The notes under the pieces were generated by a model that had not been told where the DNA came from, ran no database searches, and saw only the letters and a program-made list of their open reading frames with translations. This document shows, piece after piece, positions 16,568-21,790 of a stretch of 22,647 bases of DNA. Within the stretch, counting starts at the first letter, position 1; every line of letters begins with the position of its first letter. Origin of the DNA: a virus; the IMG/VR virus record IMGVR_UViG_3300031612_000079, positions 1 through 22,647 of that record; one strand, 5' to 3'. Made by a program: the position numbers and the translations under genes.

Positions 16568-16759
16568 ATGAAAAAATTTCTAAGTAAGTTCTTAATTGGA
16601 CAGATGTTCAAGAGTAAAAAGTTTTGGTATGCAATTAGTTCAGTATTAGTTCCCGCATTGGTAACCTATCTAGGTGTTGATGTTGAAACTGCTGAGAAAT
16701 TATTCCAAGCTTTATTAGTTTTAATTTTAGGTCAAGGAATTGCTGATATTAAAAAATAA
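16568..16759 (+). CDS. Holin-like small membrane protein
   Basis: This 63-residue protein has a basic N-terminus (MKKFLSKFLIGQMFKSKKFW), two hydrophobic segments (YAISSVLVPALVTYLGV and LFQALLVLILGQGIADI) separated by a short acidic turn (DVETAEK), and the C-terminus KK. This two-span topology with a charged tail fits a class II holin. It follows the DUF5675 gene by one base, and together they make the likely lysis cassette. It is the last protein gene before the non-coding 16760-16971 region. Confidence 0.6.
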   Translation: MKKFLSKFLIGQMFKSKKFWYAISSVLVPALVTYLGVDVETAEKLFQALLVLILGQGIADIKK

Positions 16760-16764
16760 AGTAT

Positions 16765-16772
16765 TATATTTG
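16765..16772 (+). promoter_or_regulatory. Late-type promoter of candidate small RNA, TATATTTG
   Basis: An exact TAnnTTTG match followed by CA lies six bases after the holin stop. A TTG at 16740-16742 is 22 bases upstream, slightly far for a -33 element. No ORF of useful size follows; instead there is a hairpin-terminator unit. Transcription should start near 16776. Confidence 0.55.
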
Positions 16773-16774
16773 CA

Positions 16775-16858
16775 TACCATTTCCTAGTTAGATATGGTAG
16801 TAGTAGTTTGATAAAATAGTTTTAGTTAGAAGAAAGGGGGGTAGTTTCCCCTTTTTTT
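16775..16858 (+). ncRNA. Candidate phage small RNA (~84 nt)
   Basis: The unit lies between a TATATTTG promoter and a strong intrinsic terminator and encodes no protein. The 5' end can form a 6-bp hairpin, TACCAT (16775-16780) with ATGGTA (16794-16799), 13-base loop. The loop contains TAGTTAGA (16785-16792), repeated exactly in the unpaired linker at 16823-16830. The 3' end is the terminator stem at 16833-16854 followed by T7. The linker TTTTAGTTA (16820-16828) is complementary to TAACTAAAA in front of three early genes (18221, 18543, 21120). No known RNA family is recognised. A simple terminator-plus-spurious-promoter explanation remains possible. Confidence 0.5.
16833..16858 (+). terminator. 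Intrinsic terminator, end of late region/small RNA
   Basis: AAAGGGG (16833-16839) pairs with CCCCTTT (16848-16854), loop GGTAGTTT, and the run of seven T (16852-16858) follows the C block. This is the clearest rho-independent terminator in the window and separates the lysis genes from the early region. Confidence 0.85.
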
Positions 16859-16882: not shown

Positions 16883-16890
16883 TATCTTGT
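16883..16890 (+). promoter_or_regulatory. Possible weak promoter before metallophosphoesterase gene
   Basis: TATCTTGT followed by GCA partly matches TAnnTTTG, just downstream of the terminator. TTTG at 16856-16859 is 23 bases upstream. If used, transcription would start near 16895 and give a ~77-base leader containing the TTGAAACTGCTG repeats. Confidence 0.3.
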
Positions 16891-16971: not shown

Positions 16972-18060
16972 ATGAAAGAATATGGACGAAGATTAAGATT
17001 ATCTACTGATGAAGAAAATCTTATATATAAGCACCGGGCAAAATCAGTAGACAATATAAATGATAACTCAGCATTAGACCTGCATTTATCTGAAAGAGGG
17101 ATAGAGCAAAAAGATGTTGTTTCCGTTAAGCATTGGCAATCAGCAAGTGGAGATTATAGATTCTCAATAGTTACAAAAGAAGACTATGGTTTAGATGAGC
17201 AACAAATATTTGACAACGTAAATAAATTTATAGAGGGATATTCTCCTGACTATAAAAAAATTGAAAGAAAAAAAGGAAATCATTTACTCGTAATAAATCC
17301 TGCTGATATTCATATTGGTAAGTATGCTAGTGCATTAGAAACAGGAGAAAAATATGACTGTGAAACTGCTGTAGAAAGAGTTTTAGAAGGAGTACAAGGT
17401 CTTATAAAAAAAGCTGAGGGTTTTGATATTGATAAGGTATTATTCTGTATTGGTAATGACATACTCCACACGGACTCCGTGCTTTCAGCAACTACTAGAG
17501 GTACATATCAGGACACCGATAAAAAATGGTGGGAGCATTATGAGATTGCTTTAATGCTTTATGTAAAATGCGTAGAGATGTTAAGGGAAATAGCACCGGT
17601 AGATGTATTACACAGTATGAGTAACCATGATTATCAAAGTGGATTTCATTTAGCACACACATTAAAGTCTTGGTTCAGAAAAGCAGATGACGTTAAGTTT
17701 GATATAAGCGTTTCAGCTCGTAAATATTATGTGTATGGATTAAATTTAATAGGATTAGAACATGGAGATTCTGCTAAGATGGATAAATTACCATTATTAA
17801 TGGCTAATGAGAAACCAAAAGAATGGGCAGAAACCAAATATAGGTATTGGTATTTACATCATTTACATCATAAAATAAAACATAAATGGTTAGATGCAAA
17901 AGATTTTATAGGTGTTACAGTTGAATATATGAGAAGCCCATCTTCGGCAGACAGTTGGCACTCAGCTAAAGGATTTTGTGGAGTACCACGAGCGTGTGAA
18001 GGATTCATTCACGATAAACAAAGTGGTCAGGTAGCTAGATTAACTCACTACTTTAATTAA
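16972..18060 (+). CDS. Calcineurin-like metallophosphoesterase
   Basis: The 362-residue protein has the metallophosphoesterase motifs in order: D112-I-H114 in NPADIHIGK, G161-N-D163 in FCIGNDILHTD, N218-H219-D220 in SMSNHDYQ, H264-G-D266 in LEHGDSAK, and the His cluster at 296-300 (LHHLHHK). These bind two metal ions and act on phosphoesters; phage members have been linked to nuclease (SbcD/Mre11-like) or phosphatase roles. The first ~95 residues are a separate N-terminal region beginning MKEYGRRLRLSTDEENLIYK that could be a DNA-binding extension. Only small variations from the classic GDxHxG motif are seen. It is the first gene after the late terminator; its stop codon overlaps the inverted repeat at 18059. 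The substrate is unknown. Confidence 0.75.
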   Translation: MKEYGRRLRLSTDEENLIYKHRAKSVDNINDNSALDLHLSERGIEQKDVVSVKHWQSASGDYRFSIVTKEDYGLDEQQIFDNVNKFIEGYSPDYKKIERKKGNHLLVINPADIHIGKYASALETGEKYDCETAVERVLEGVQGLIKKAEGFDIDKVLFCIGNDILHTDSVLSATTRGTYQDTDKKWWEHYEIALMLYVKCVEMLREIAPVDVLHSMSNHDYQSGFHLAHTLKSWFRKADDVKFDISVSARKYYVYGLNLIGLEHGDSAKMDKLPLLMANEKPKEWAETKYRYWYLHHLHHKIKHKWLDAKDFIGVTVEYMRSPSSADSWHSAKGFCGVPRACEGFIHDKQSGQVARLTHYFN

Positions 18061-18179: not shown

Positions 18180-18210
18180 TTTGGTGTTTGTGTAAAAAAG
18201 AATATCTTTG
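18180..18210 (+). promoter_or_regulatory. Early promoter TTTG-N19-TATCTTTG
   Basis: TTTG (18180-18183), 19 bases, then TATCTTTG (18203-18210): a full match to the Bacteroidota -33/-7 consensus. It should start near 18215 and give a ~24-base leader containing TAACTAAAA. It drives the cysteine-rich, winged-helix and following early genes. Confidence 0.7.
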
Positions 18211-18238
18211 CCACGAACTTTAACTAAAAAAACTAACT

Positions 18239-18517
18239 ATGAGTAAAACTAATTTAACAAGCCCATGTTGTAATTCAGAATATGAAAAAGATACATTAAG
18301 CTATTGTTGTGGAGCAGAAATATCAGATAGCGGATTGTGTTATGAATGCAAAGACCACGCTGAATCTGAAGGATATATATGTGATGAATGTGAAGATTAT
18401 TTTGAGCAGCCTGAAGAAGAAAGATTTAATTGTGGTGCTTGTGGAGAGGATTTAGATGAAGATATAAGATATTGTTCTAAAGAATGTTCAGTATCAGATA
18501 ATACAGAAGGAGTATAA
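18239..18517 (+). CDS. Cysteine-rich multi-zinc-ribbon protein
   Basis: This 92-residue protein is the first gene after the best promoter in the window. It holds twelve cysteines in six pairs: SPCCN, SYCCG, GLCYEC, YICDEC, FNCGAC and RYCSKEC, enough for two to three zinc ribbons. It is strongly acidic between the pairs (DEDIRYC, EQPEEE), which argues against simple DNA binding and for a protein-protein or RNA polymerase-targeting adaptor. I recognise no named family. The leader TAACTAAAA lies 9 bases before the ATG. Being first in the early operon, it may be a host-takeover factor; that is a guess from position. Confidence 0.65.
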   Translation: MSKTNLTSPCCNSEYEKDTLSYCCGAEISDSGLCYECKDHAESEGYICDECEDYFEQPEEERFNCGACGEDLDEDIRYCSKECSVSDNTEGV

Positions 18518-18560
18518 ATAACTATTAACTATAAATAACTATTAACTAAAAATAACTAAG
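18515..18560 (+). repeat. 17-bp tandem repeat between two early genes
   Basis: TAAATAACTATTAACTA occurs at 18515-18531 and 18532-18548, followed by a partial copy (AAAATAACTAAG) to the next ATG. The first copy includes the upstream stop codon. It may be a slippage product kept as an A/U-rich translation leader, and it contains TAACTAAAA at 18543-18551. Confidence 0.6.
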
Positions 18561-18881
18561 ATGACTAAAACGCAAACGAGTGATATTCTACAACACTTAA
18601 AAGATGGTAGAAAACTTACACAAAAAGAATCAATAAATGAGTATGGTGCTTATAGACTATCAGCCATTATACATAGCCTAAGAAAAAAGGGACATTTAAT
18701 AGAAAGCATTCCTCTTAAAGTGCCTACGAGATATATAGCGAAAGATGGTAATCCAAAAATGGCAAACATTGTTGAATATAAATTAGATACAGATAACAAT
18801 ATGTTTGGTAAGAACTTTGATGAAAGATTAAAAAATTTTATGGGTTATCTAACTGATATAACAAATACACATTCAAAATAA
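18561..18881 (+). CDS. Winged helix-turn-helix protein (HTH_39-like)
   Basis: The 106-residue protein fits small phage winged-helix proteins of the HTH_39 kind: SDILQHLKDGRKLTQKESI for helices 1-2, NEYGAYRLSAIIHSLRKKGH for the recognition helix region, and IESIPLKVP for the wing. The second half (YIAKDGNPKMANIVEYKLD) is a short strand-rich end plus a charged helix. Such proteins are common in early phage operons and are taken to be DNA-binding regulators; no target is known. It follows the cysteine-rich gene after a 43-base repeat-containing leader and overlaps the next start by one base. Confidence 0.6.
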   Translation: MTKTQTSDILQHLKDGRKLTQKESINEYGAYRLSAIIHSLRKKGHLIESIPLKVPTRYIAKDGNPKMANIVEYKLDTDNNMFGKNFDERLKNFMGYLTDITNTHSK

Positions 18882-21058: not shown

Positions 21059-21109
21059 AGAGAAATGGAGATAACAGACCATTGGCAAATGCTTGAAACT
21101 CCTTTCTCT
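21059..21109 (+). promoter_or_regulatory. Structured leader RNA of replication operon
   Basis: AGAGAAATGGAG (21059-21070) can pair with CTCCTTTCTCT (21099-21109) over 11 bp with one bulged T (21066). Inside, CATT (21080-21083) and AATG (21088-21091) close a GGCA tetraloop. No known riboswitch class is recognised. The stem would bury the start of the small frame at 21065, suggesting translational or transcriptional control. Confidence 0.4.
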
Positions 21110-21118
21110 TTATTCTAA
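21065..21118 (+). CDS. Possible 17-residue leader peptide
   Basis: ATG 21065 opens a 17-codon frame (MEITDHWQMLETPFSLF) ending at TAA 21116-21118, inside the structured leader and after a GAGAGAA sequence. A ribosome on it would disrupt the 11-bp stem. It is far too short to be called on coding statistics; its position is the only support. Confidence 0.25.
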   Translation: MEITDHWQMLETPFSLF

Positions 21119-21151
21119 TTAACTAAAAACTATTAAATAAACTAAACTAAA

Positions 21152-21790
21152 ATGGCTAAGAGATTTACTGACACAGAAAAATGGAAAAAAGGATTCATAA
21201 GGAGTTTACCACCATCATATAAACTTCTTTGGTTGTATATGTTAGATGATTGTGATAATGCAGGAGTTTGGCAGGTAGAGGTTGAGGTGGCATCAATAAG
21301 AATAGGAGCAAAACTAAATGAAAGGGAGGCATTGAAACTGTTTGGAGATACTGTTATTAGTTTTGATGGAGGTAGTAAGTGGTTTATTAAAGAGTTTGTT
21401 AAGTTTCAGCAAGGAGTTAATCATATAGCAGAACTTAATAGCAATTCAAACCCTCATAAAAGCATTTTAAGACTAGTAGAGCAGTATAAGTTGCTTGAAT
21501 TAGAAGATAACCCTAAAGAGTACATTGAAGAGGTTAAAGAAGCTAAGAAGAGTAGTAGGTTTGTTAAGCCTACAATGGATAATGTTGCTGACTACTGTAT
21601 TGAAAGAAAAAGTAACGGAAACAATGTAGACCCTGTTAAATTTGTAAACTTCTATGACAGTAATGGATGGAAGGTAGGTAAAAATCCTATGAAGGATTGG
21701 AAGGCTTGTGTTAGGAGTTGGGAGGCAAACACACCTAAAGATAAGATGGGCAGAAAAGAATTAGCTAATAAAGATTATAATAAATTTTAA
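21152..21790 (+). CDS. Phage replication initiation protein
   Basis: The 212-residue protein has the two-part layout of phage replication initiators/replisome organisers. The N-terminal part (about 1-110), with KWKKGFIRSLPPSYKLLWLY and LDDCDNAGVWQVEVEV, is the winged-helix start seen in many phage replication proteins. The C-terminal part (about 137-195) reads FVKPTMDNVADYC, PVKFVNFYDSNGWKVGKNPM and KDWKACVRSW, a DnaD-like/initiator tail probably contacting the helicase loader. The gene directly upstream of a DnaC-like loader fits. It would bind the phage origin, not identified with certainty; a link with the 18059-18144 repeats is possible. Its leader contains TAACTAAAA 23 bases before the ATG. 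Confidence 0.72.
   Translation: MAKRFTDTEKWKKGFIRSLPPSYKLLWLYMLDDCDNAGVWQVEVEVASIRIGAKLNEREALKLFGDTVISFDGGSKWFIKEFVKFQQGVNHIAELNSNSNPHKSILRLVEQYKLLELEDNPKEYIEEVKEAKKSSRFVKPTMDNVADYCIERKSNGNNVDPVKFVNFYDSNGWKVGKNPMKDWKACVRSWEANTPKDKMGRKELANKDYNKF

Follow-up and report, generated by a model that had tools for sequence, protein, structure and literature searches.

What is encoded in the short gap between the holin-like gene and the early genes of a tailed phage, where a promoter element and a terminator are present and a reading frame is not? The question is raised by a virus record (IMG/VR record IMGVR_UViG_3300031612_000079), the whole of which, 22,647 nucleotides (22.6 kb), was analyzed and is called the window here. 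The window carries the tape measure, ClpP-like head protease, and portal genes of a tailed phage, and its structural genes are followed in order by a DUF5675 gene, a holin-like gene, the gap, and the early genes. The 63-aa holin-like protein (16568–16759, + strand) has no family match, and the first early gene after the gap is a DNA repair exonuclease-like gene (16972–18060, + strand; phrog_704, E = 1.3e-65). Genes are labeled early on the basis of gene content and position. Here, we argue by comparison of related phages that the gap very probably encodes a trans-acting antisense small RNA of ~80 nt, which would most likely repress the translation of early genes.

A DNA-level search for the nearest phage records returned none. 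Named phages compared through the exonuclease protein are <60% identical, and the two regions inspected have different gene neighborhoods. A search of Genome_contigs found neither a copy of the RNA nor a relative of the exonuclease, and therefore provides no prophage and no named host. The promoter type and the distant named Flavobacterium phages suggest a flavobacterial affiliation of the phage group.

Elements of the Predicted Small RNA Unit

A sequence-only reading of the gap had described a promoter element just after the holin stop codon, a 5′ hairpin, an exact direct repeat, a G-C terminator stem followed by seven T, and the lack of a coding frame, and all of these were recovered. The holin-like reading frame ends at 16759 and the −7 promoter element TATATTTG lies at 16765–16772 (+ strand), with TAnnTTTR at the equivalent place in nearly all copies of the unit. 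The primary flavobacterial sigma factor has the consensus TAnnTTTG, and its element spans −12 to −5 (PMC6847099, PMC9723704), which places the transcription start near 16777 and gives a predicted RNA of ~82 nt (16777–16858, + strand), consistent with the promoter spacing, the terminator, and the conservation of the unit in relatives. Folding gives a 5′ hairpin, UACCAU/AUGGUA (16775–16799, + strand; TACCAT at 16775–16780 and ATGGTA at 16794–16799), the stem of which is two pairs shorter if the RNA starts exactly at 16777. The hairpin loop CUAGUUAGA (16784–16792, + strand) constitutes a putative antisense segment 1, whose complement CTAACTA occurs at 18233–18239, and an unpaired linker (16800–16829, + strand), ending in UUUUAGUUAG (16820–16829), constitutes a putative segment 2. 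The direct repeat TAGTTAGA is found once in the loop (16785–16792) and once before the terminator (16823–16830). The intrinsic terminator, a G/C stem-loop with T7, occupies 16829–16858 (+ strand) and was recovered by a terminator scan, which over 3 kb returned 2 overlapping terminator-like sites against 0.8 expected. The 87-nt fold has a z of −2.4, and 3 of 200 shuffles fold equally well. Taken singly, the window sequence is only modestly better than chance, and the case is made by the comparative evidence. No open reading frame of at least 50 aa was found in the gap. A peptide encoded by the small RNA was also considered and rejected, as the gap lacks such a frame and frames are not preserved between close copies (by eye).

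At the sequence level, the unit has the layout of a free-standing gene in that the −7 box is kept and a terminator is present, with a weak −33 box. In the window, the nearest TTG lies ~22 nt upstream of the −7 box (by eye), many other copies likewise have a weak −33 element, and some −7 boxes read TTTA. Such weak and partly degenerate elements, together with the position of the RNA directly 3′ of the holin-like gene and a common terminator, favor a different origin, in which processing of the late lysis mRNA would release its 3′ end as the RNA, which would have no promoter of its own and would still act as a late antisense brake on the early genes. We consider this origin unlikely, given that TAnnTTTR is kept directly after the holin stop codon in every class and in nearly all copies while its two middle bases vary, as those of a working −7 element would. 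Late expression had been proposed on the grounds that the promoter is of a late type. That argument is not supported, because the TAnnTTTG consensus also precedes the early operon, where an equal element lies at 18203–18210. The RNA may be transcribed from its own promoter, early or constantly, or may arise late as the end of the lysis mRNA.

Conservation and Structure of the Unit in Related Phages

A scan of IMG/VR with the exonuclease protein and pieces of the RNA yielded 179 loci that carry the exonuclease, some of which overlap on one contig so that the counts do not represent independent genomes. The RNA unit lies between the holin-like and exonuclease genes in 144 of them, 33 are without the unit, and 2 are too short for a call. 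The unit falls into nine sequence classes, assigned by patterns chosen post hoc after the sequences had been viewed: A (62 loci), B (7), C (11, including the window), C2 (1), D (21), E (24), F (16), G (1), and H (1). In class A, conservation is 0.83 for the RNA unit and 0.54 for the four-fold-degenerate sites of the adjacent exonuclease gene (404 of 406 pairs), and the corresponding values are 0.90 and 0.72 in class D, 0.85 and 0.63 in class E, and 0.95 and 0.70 in class F. The recurrence of the unit at 144 of 179 loci and its conservation beyond that of the four-fold sites indicate that the gap is not an ordinary spacer. None of the covariance models of Rfam 15 matched the window or eight relatives, one for each of the classes A–H, at the gathering score, and a search of the window region at E ≤ 1 returned only chance microRNA models.

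Covariance in relatives had been named as a check of the hairpin. The terminator stem shows two-sided compensatory changes at 6 of 10 pairs in a first alignment; an alignment of class D, which has ragged ends, was inspected by eye only. A 5′ hairpin, assessed by folding each sequence singly, is present in every class with differing arms (among them AUUACC/GGUAAU, UAUUCC/GGAAUA, ACUCCC/GGGAGU, GACAGG/CCUGUC, and GAAAGG/CCUUUC). MAFFT with RNAalifold across mixed classes recovered the terminator alone, as the hairpin arms vary by class and are split by gaps. The RNA thus combines a conserved structure with unpaired, conserved segments suited to pairing.

Further Sequence Features of the Locus

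Several other features accompany the unit. The element TGAAACTGCTG occurs six times in the window (9837, 14090, 16684, 16908, 16937, and 17361), always on the + strand, and shuffled sequences give 0 copies. Two of the copies stand 29 nt apart within the exonuclease leader, which has three copies in one relative (L008). The element could be an iteron, a recombination site, or a protein-binding site. The exonuclease gene of the window is without a TAnnTTTG box and has TATCTTGT at 16883–16890, ~80 nt upstream of its ATG; this sequence resembles the alternative flavobacterial TAnnTTGY box (PMC9723704). At four loci (L029, L033, L034, and L041), the exonuclease gene lies in another neighborhood without the holin-like gene or the RNA.

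Complementarity to Early Leaders in the Window

The 9-mer TAACTAAAA, the complement of the part UUUUAGUUA of segment 2, occurs outside the RNA gene at only three places in the whole window on either strand. Each of them, at 18221, 18543, and 21120, falls within the leader of an early gene, and the corresponding start codons are ATG 18239, ATG 18561, and ATG 21152, respectively. The 7-nt complement of the repeat, CTAACTA, has a single + strand copy in the window, at 18233–18239, which abuts the start codon at 18239. The leader before this start codon, called O2 and belonging to the early operon that follows the exonuclease gene (18203–18241, + strand; promoter TATCTTTG, leader ending in TTTAACTAAAAAAACTAACT), can therefore pair with both segments in antiparallel order through 9 bp and 7 bp, with a binding ΔG of −13.4 that ranks 4 among 28 gene starts. 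The leader before ATG 18561, the start of a winged-HTH protein (18518–18563, + strand), contains TAACTAAAA at 18543–18551 and ranks 2 of 28 with a ΔG of −17.3. The best-bound start is that of a 212-aa early protein at 21152 (leader 21105–21154, + strand), where TAACTAAAA at 21120–21128 is accompanied by further collinear pairing (ΔG −21.0, rank 1 of 28).

When accessibility was included in the binding energies of the 28 starts of the window, the top six were, in order, 21152, 18561, 19953, 18239, 19504, and 16972, all of them early, and early starts bind better than late ones (Mann–Whitney P = 0.0018). The direct repeat is part of a predicted antisense sequence matching early leaders, because its complements sit at early starts and the binding ranks early genes first. 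For class C, to which the window belongs, the 9 + 7 bp pairing with O2 alone is no better than non-cognate pairing in the class matrix, and the evidence from O2 alone is modest.

Joint Change of the RNA and Its Putative Targets

The RNA of class A has two nearly invariant and little-paired segments, GAGUGUUUUC (hairpin loop) and UAGUUAGUAGUUAAG (linker). The class A O2 leaders, for example ACTAACTAACTATTAAC-GAAAACAC-..ATG, carry the complements of the two segments, which are arranged antiparallel and end close to the AUG; the loop GAGUGUUUUC, complementary to GAAAACAC, occupies the place of segment 1 of the window. Other classes have different segments and correspondingly different leaders. 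In class D, UAGUUUUUUUGGGUU pairs with AACCUAAAAAAACUA through 15 bp with one G-U, and exact matches reach 18 nt, ending at the AUG, in the class G locus (L134), 15 nt in one class E locus (L147), and 12–13 nt in several class A loci. In phages without the RNA, complementary sequences of the class A type are absent from the O2 leaders, and these leaders score lowest or near lowest.

The match between RNA class and O2 leader class was assessed for eight classes, with scores and permutations run on whole RNA segments and leaders. The true assignment ranked 1 of 40,320 permutations by summed ungapped complementarity, 3 by longest match, and 2 by RNAduplex energy. When the classes A, B, C, and C2, which are related and not fully independent, were merged, the true assignment still ranked 1 of 120, with only 120 permutations left. 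A same-strand control, in which the segments themselves rather than their complements were matched, gave no signal (z of 0.4 versus 4.7). Owing to the repetitive nature of the motifs, a weaker signal (z of 2.5) persisted with reversed leaders. Class-matched pairing was seen again in classes A, B, and D for a second leader, O3, which precedes a peptidase-like gene.

A class-specific match of this kind would also be expected if the motif were the DNA operator of a phage repressor, present in the leaders and inverted in the gap without any regulatory RNA, since operators likewise coevolve by class and the leaders lie directly downstream of promoters. Such an operator appears very improbable, as the match is strictly antisense with a null same-strand control, falls where a covarying, terminator-bearing RNA is unpaired or only weakly paired, and involves two separate segments that pair in a collinear antiparallel manner with varying spacers.

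The complementarity to translation starts of mRNAs encoded elsewhere exceeds chance on whole contigs as well. Across ten long contigs, 56 of 181 (31%) sense 9-mer complements of the cognate RNA lie in leaders, taken as the 45 nt before a start codon, against 12.1 (6.7%) expected, and the fraction for RNAs of other classes is 215 of 1213 (18%; Fisher P = 4.7e-5); on one class E contig (G012), the enrichment is not significant (P = 0.33). With accessibility counted, the best-bound gene start is an early-region leader in 9 of 9 relatives. The putative targets are leaders before zinc-ribbon-like, winged-HTH, peptidase-like, and unnamed early genes. Unconstrained duplex scanning of whole contigs with RNAduplex was not discriminating, with coding windows dominating because the hairpin arms pair with GC-richer coding sequence, and it was replaced by segment scores and accessibility-aware binding energies.

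These distant matches also bear on a simpler account, that the unit is only a transcription boundary or attenuator, made up of a terminator that closes the late operon and a cis leader of the exonuclease gene. The unit does end in a terminator and sits between late and early genes, and the RNAs of classes E and F are partly complementary to the exonuclease start (by eye). The account is nonetheless very unlikely, given that the exonuclease genes of classes A and D have their own TAnnTTTG element just before the ATG, and that a conserved linker and matches to distant leaders would be superfluous for a plain terminator.

Two observations concern the range of targets among classes. At L136 and other class E and F loci, the RNA is complementary to the adjacent exonuclease start in addition to other leaders (for example, TAAACAATGAAA in L136), and target sets may differ by class. 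In class D, a leader AAACCCTTAAAAACTAAAAAA is found near the start of two contigs, before ATG 424 in G006 and ATG 728 in G009, ahead of a 338- or 429-aa gene, and looks like a third target operon.

Proposed Mechanism

Conservation, covariation, position, and complementary targets thus lend strong support to the sequence-only reading of the gap as a discrete small RNA; its proposed late expression is not supported. The joint change of the RNA and its putative targets in relatives suggests that the RNA is a switch acting on early genes. In the mechanism that we propose, the RNA would be transcribed from its own TAnnTTTG promoter element and ended by the intrinsic terminator. The 5′ hairpin would present one antisense segment, in its loop or, in some classes, just 3′ of the hairpin, and the unpaired linker ahead of the terminator would serve as the second. 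Both segments would pair antiparallel with the short leaders that immediately precede the start codons in several of the phage's own early genes, so that the covered translation start region would block ribosome loading and turn the early genes down. Production of the RNA, its pairing in the cell, and the repressive outcome are what we infer from these comparisons. Bacteroidetes initiate translation without Shine–Dalgarno pairing, and secondary structure in the start region hinders initiation (PMC6847099), which is the reason that repression of the early genes is proposed.

The occasion for this turn-down could be the move to the late phase or superinfection by a related phage. No integrase family was detected in 14 related contigs, 11 of them >30 kb, and a lysogeny switch is therefore less likely. 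A more tentative suggestion, which we regard as doubtful, is that the RNA is an immunity determinant of these apparently virulent phages, with the RNA class corresponding to an immunity group and a resident RNA silencing the early genes of newcomers of the same class. The suggestion comes from the resemblance of the pattern, matched within and mismatched between classes, to heteroimmunity such as that of the c4 RNA of P1/P7; if true, it would explain why the RNA and leaders diverge jointly into many mutually mismatched classes.

Relation to Known Systems and Significance

The c4 RNA of P1/P7 is likewise structured and encoded by the phage, it covers the translation start region of a phage mRNA as an antisense RNA, and its specificity differs between related phages and results in heteroimmunity (PMC12197685). 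The RNA described here shares, at the level of sequence, the complementarity to translation starts and the specificity that differs between related phages. c4 targets the ant mRNA, whereas the putative targets here are early leaders rather than an antirepressor. Unlike c4, the present RNA is a unit of its own, encoded at distances of up to several kilobases from its putative targets, would address several early genes, has no gene context in common with c4, and belongs to phages without a detected integrase (14 contigs).

The antisense RNAs P22 sar and lambda OOP are each encoded opposite a single target, unlike the RNA here, which is encoded elsewhere and is predicted to pair imperfectly with multiple targets. 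Like it, they are short phage RNAs that lower phage gene expression by pairing (PMC12197685). VpdS of VP882 and PreS of lambda are also phage-encoded, trans-acting, and base-pairing, with VpdS affecting mRNAs of the phage and of the host (PMC12197685). Both are Hfq-dependent and belong to temperate phages of proteobacteria, and PreS is described for the host target dnaN; here, by contrast, the phages belong to another phylum, and the coevolving phage targets can be read off their genomes.

The T4 protein RegA is a translational repressor that acts at the start regions of several early phage mRNAs and shuts them off, a comparable job that would be performed here by RNA instead of protein. A review covers translational control in T4 (PMC3014915). 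Most of the phage regulatory RNAs described in another review are from temperate proteobacterial phages, and most have a single target or act on the host (PMC12197685). Here, a large marine group of Bacteroidetes-type phages in which no integrase was detected carries an RNA whose targets appear to be several early mRNAs of the phage itself. The repeated rewriting of the antisense segments jointly with the leaders constitutes unusually direct comparative evidence for the targets, in a phylum that lacks Shine–Dalgarno sequences and in which translational control is little known. An early-to-late switch or an RNA-based superinfection immunity in these phages is thereby made directly testable.
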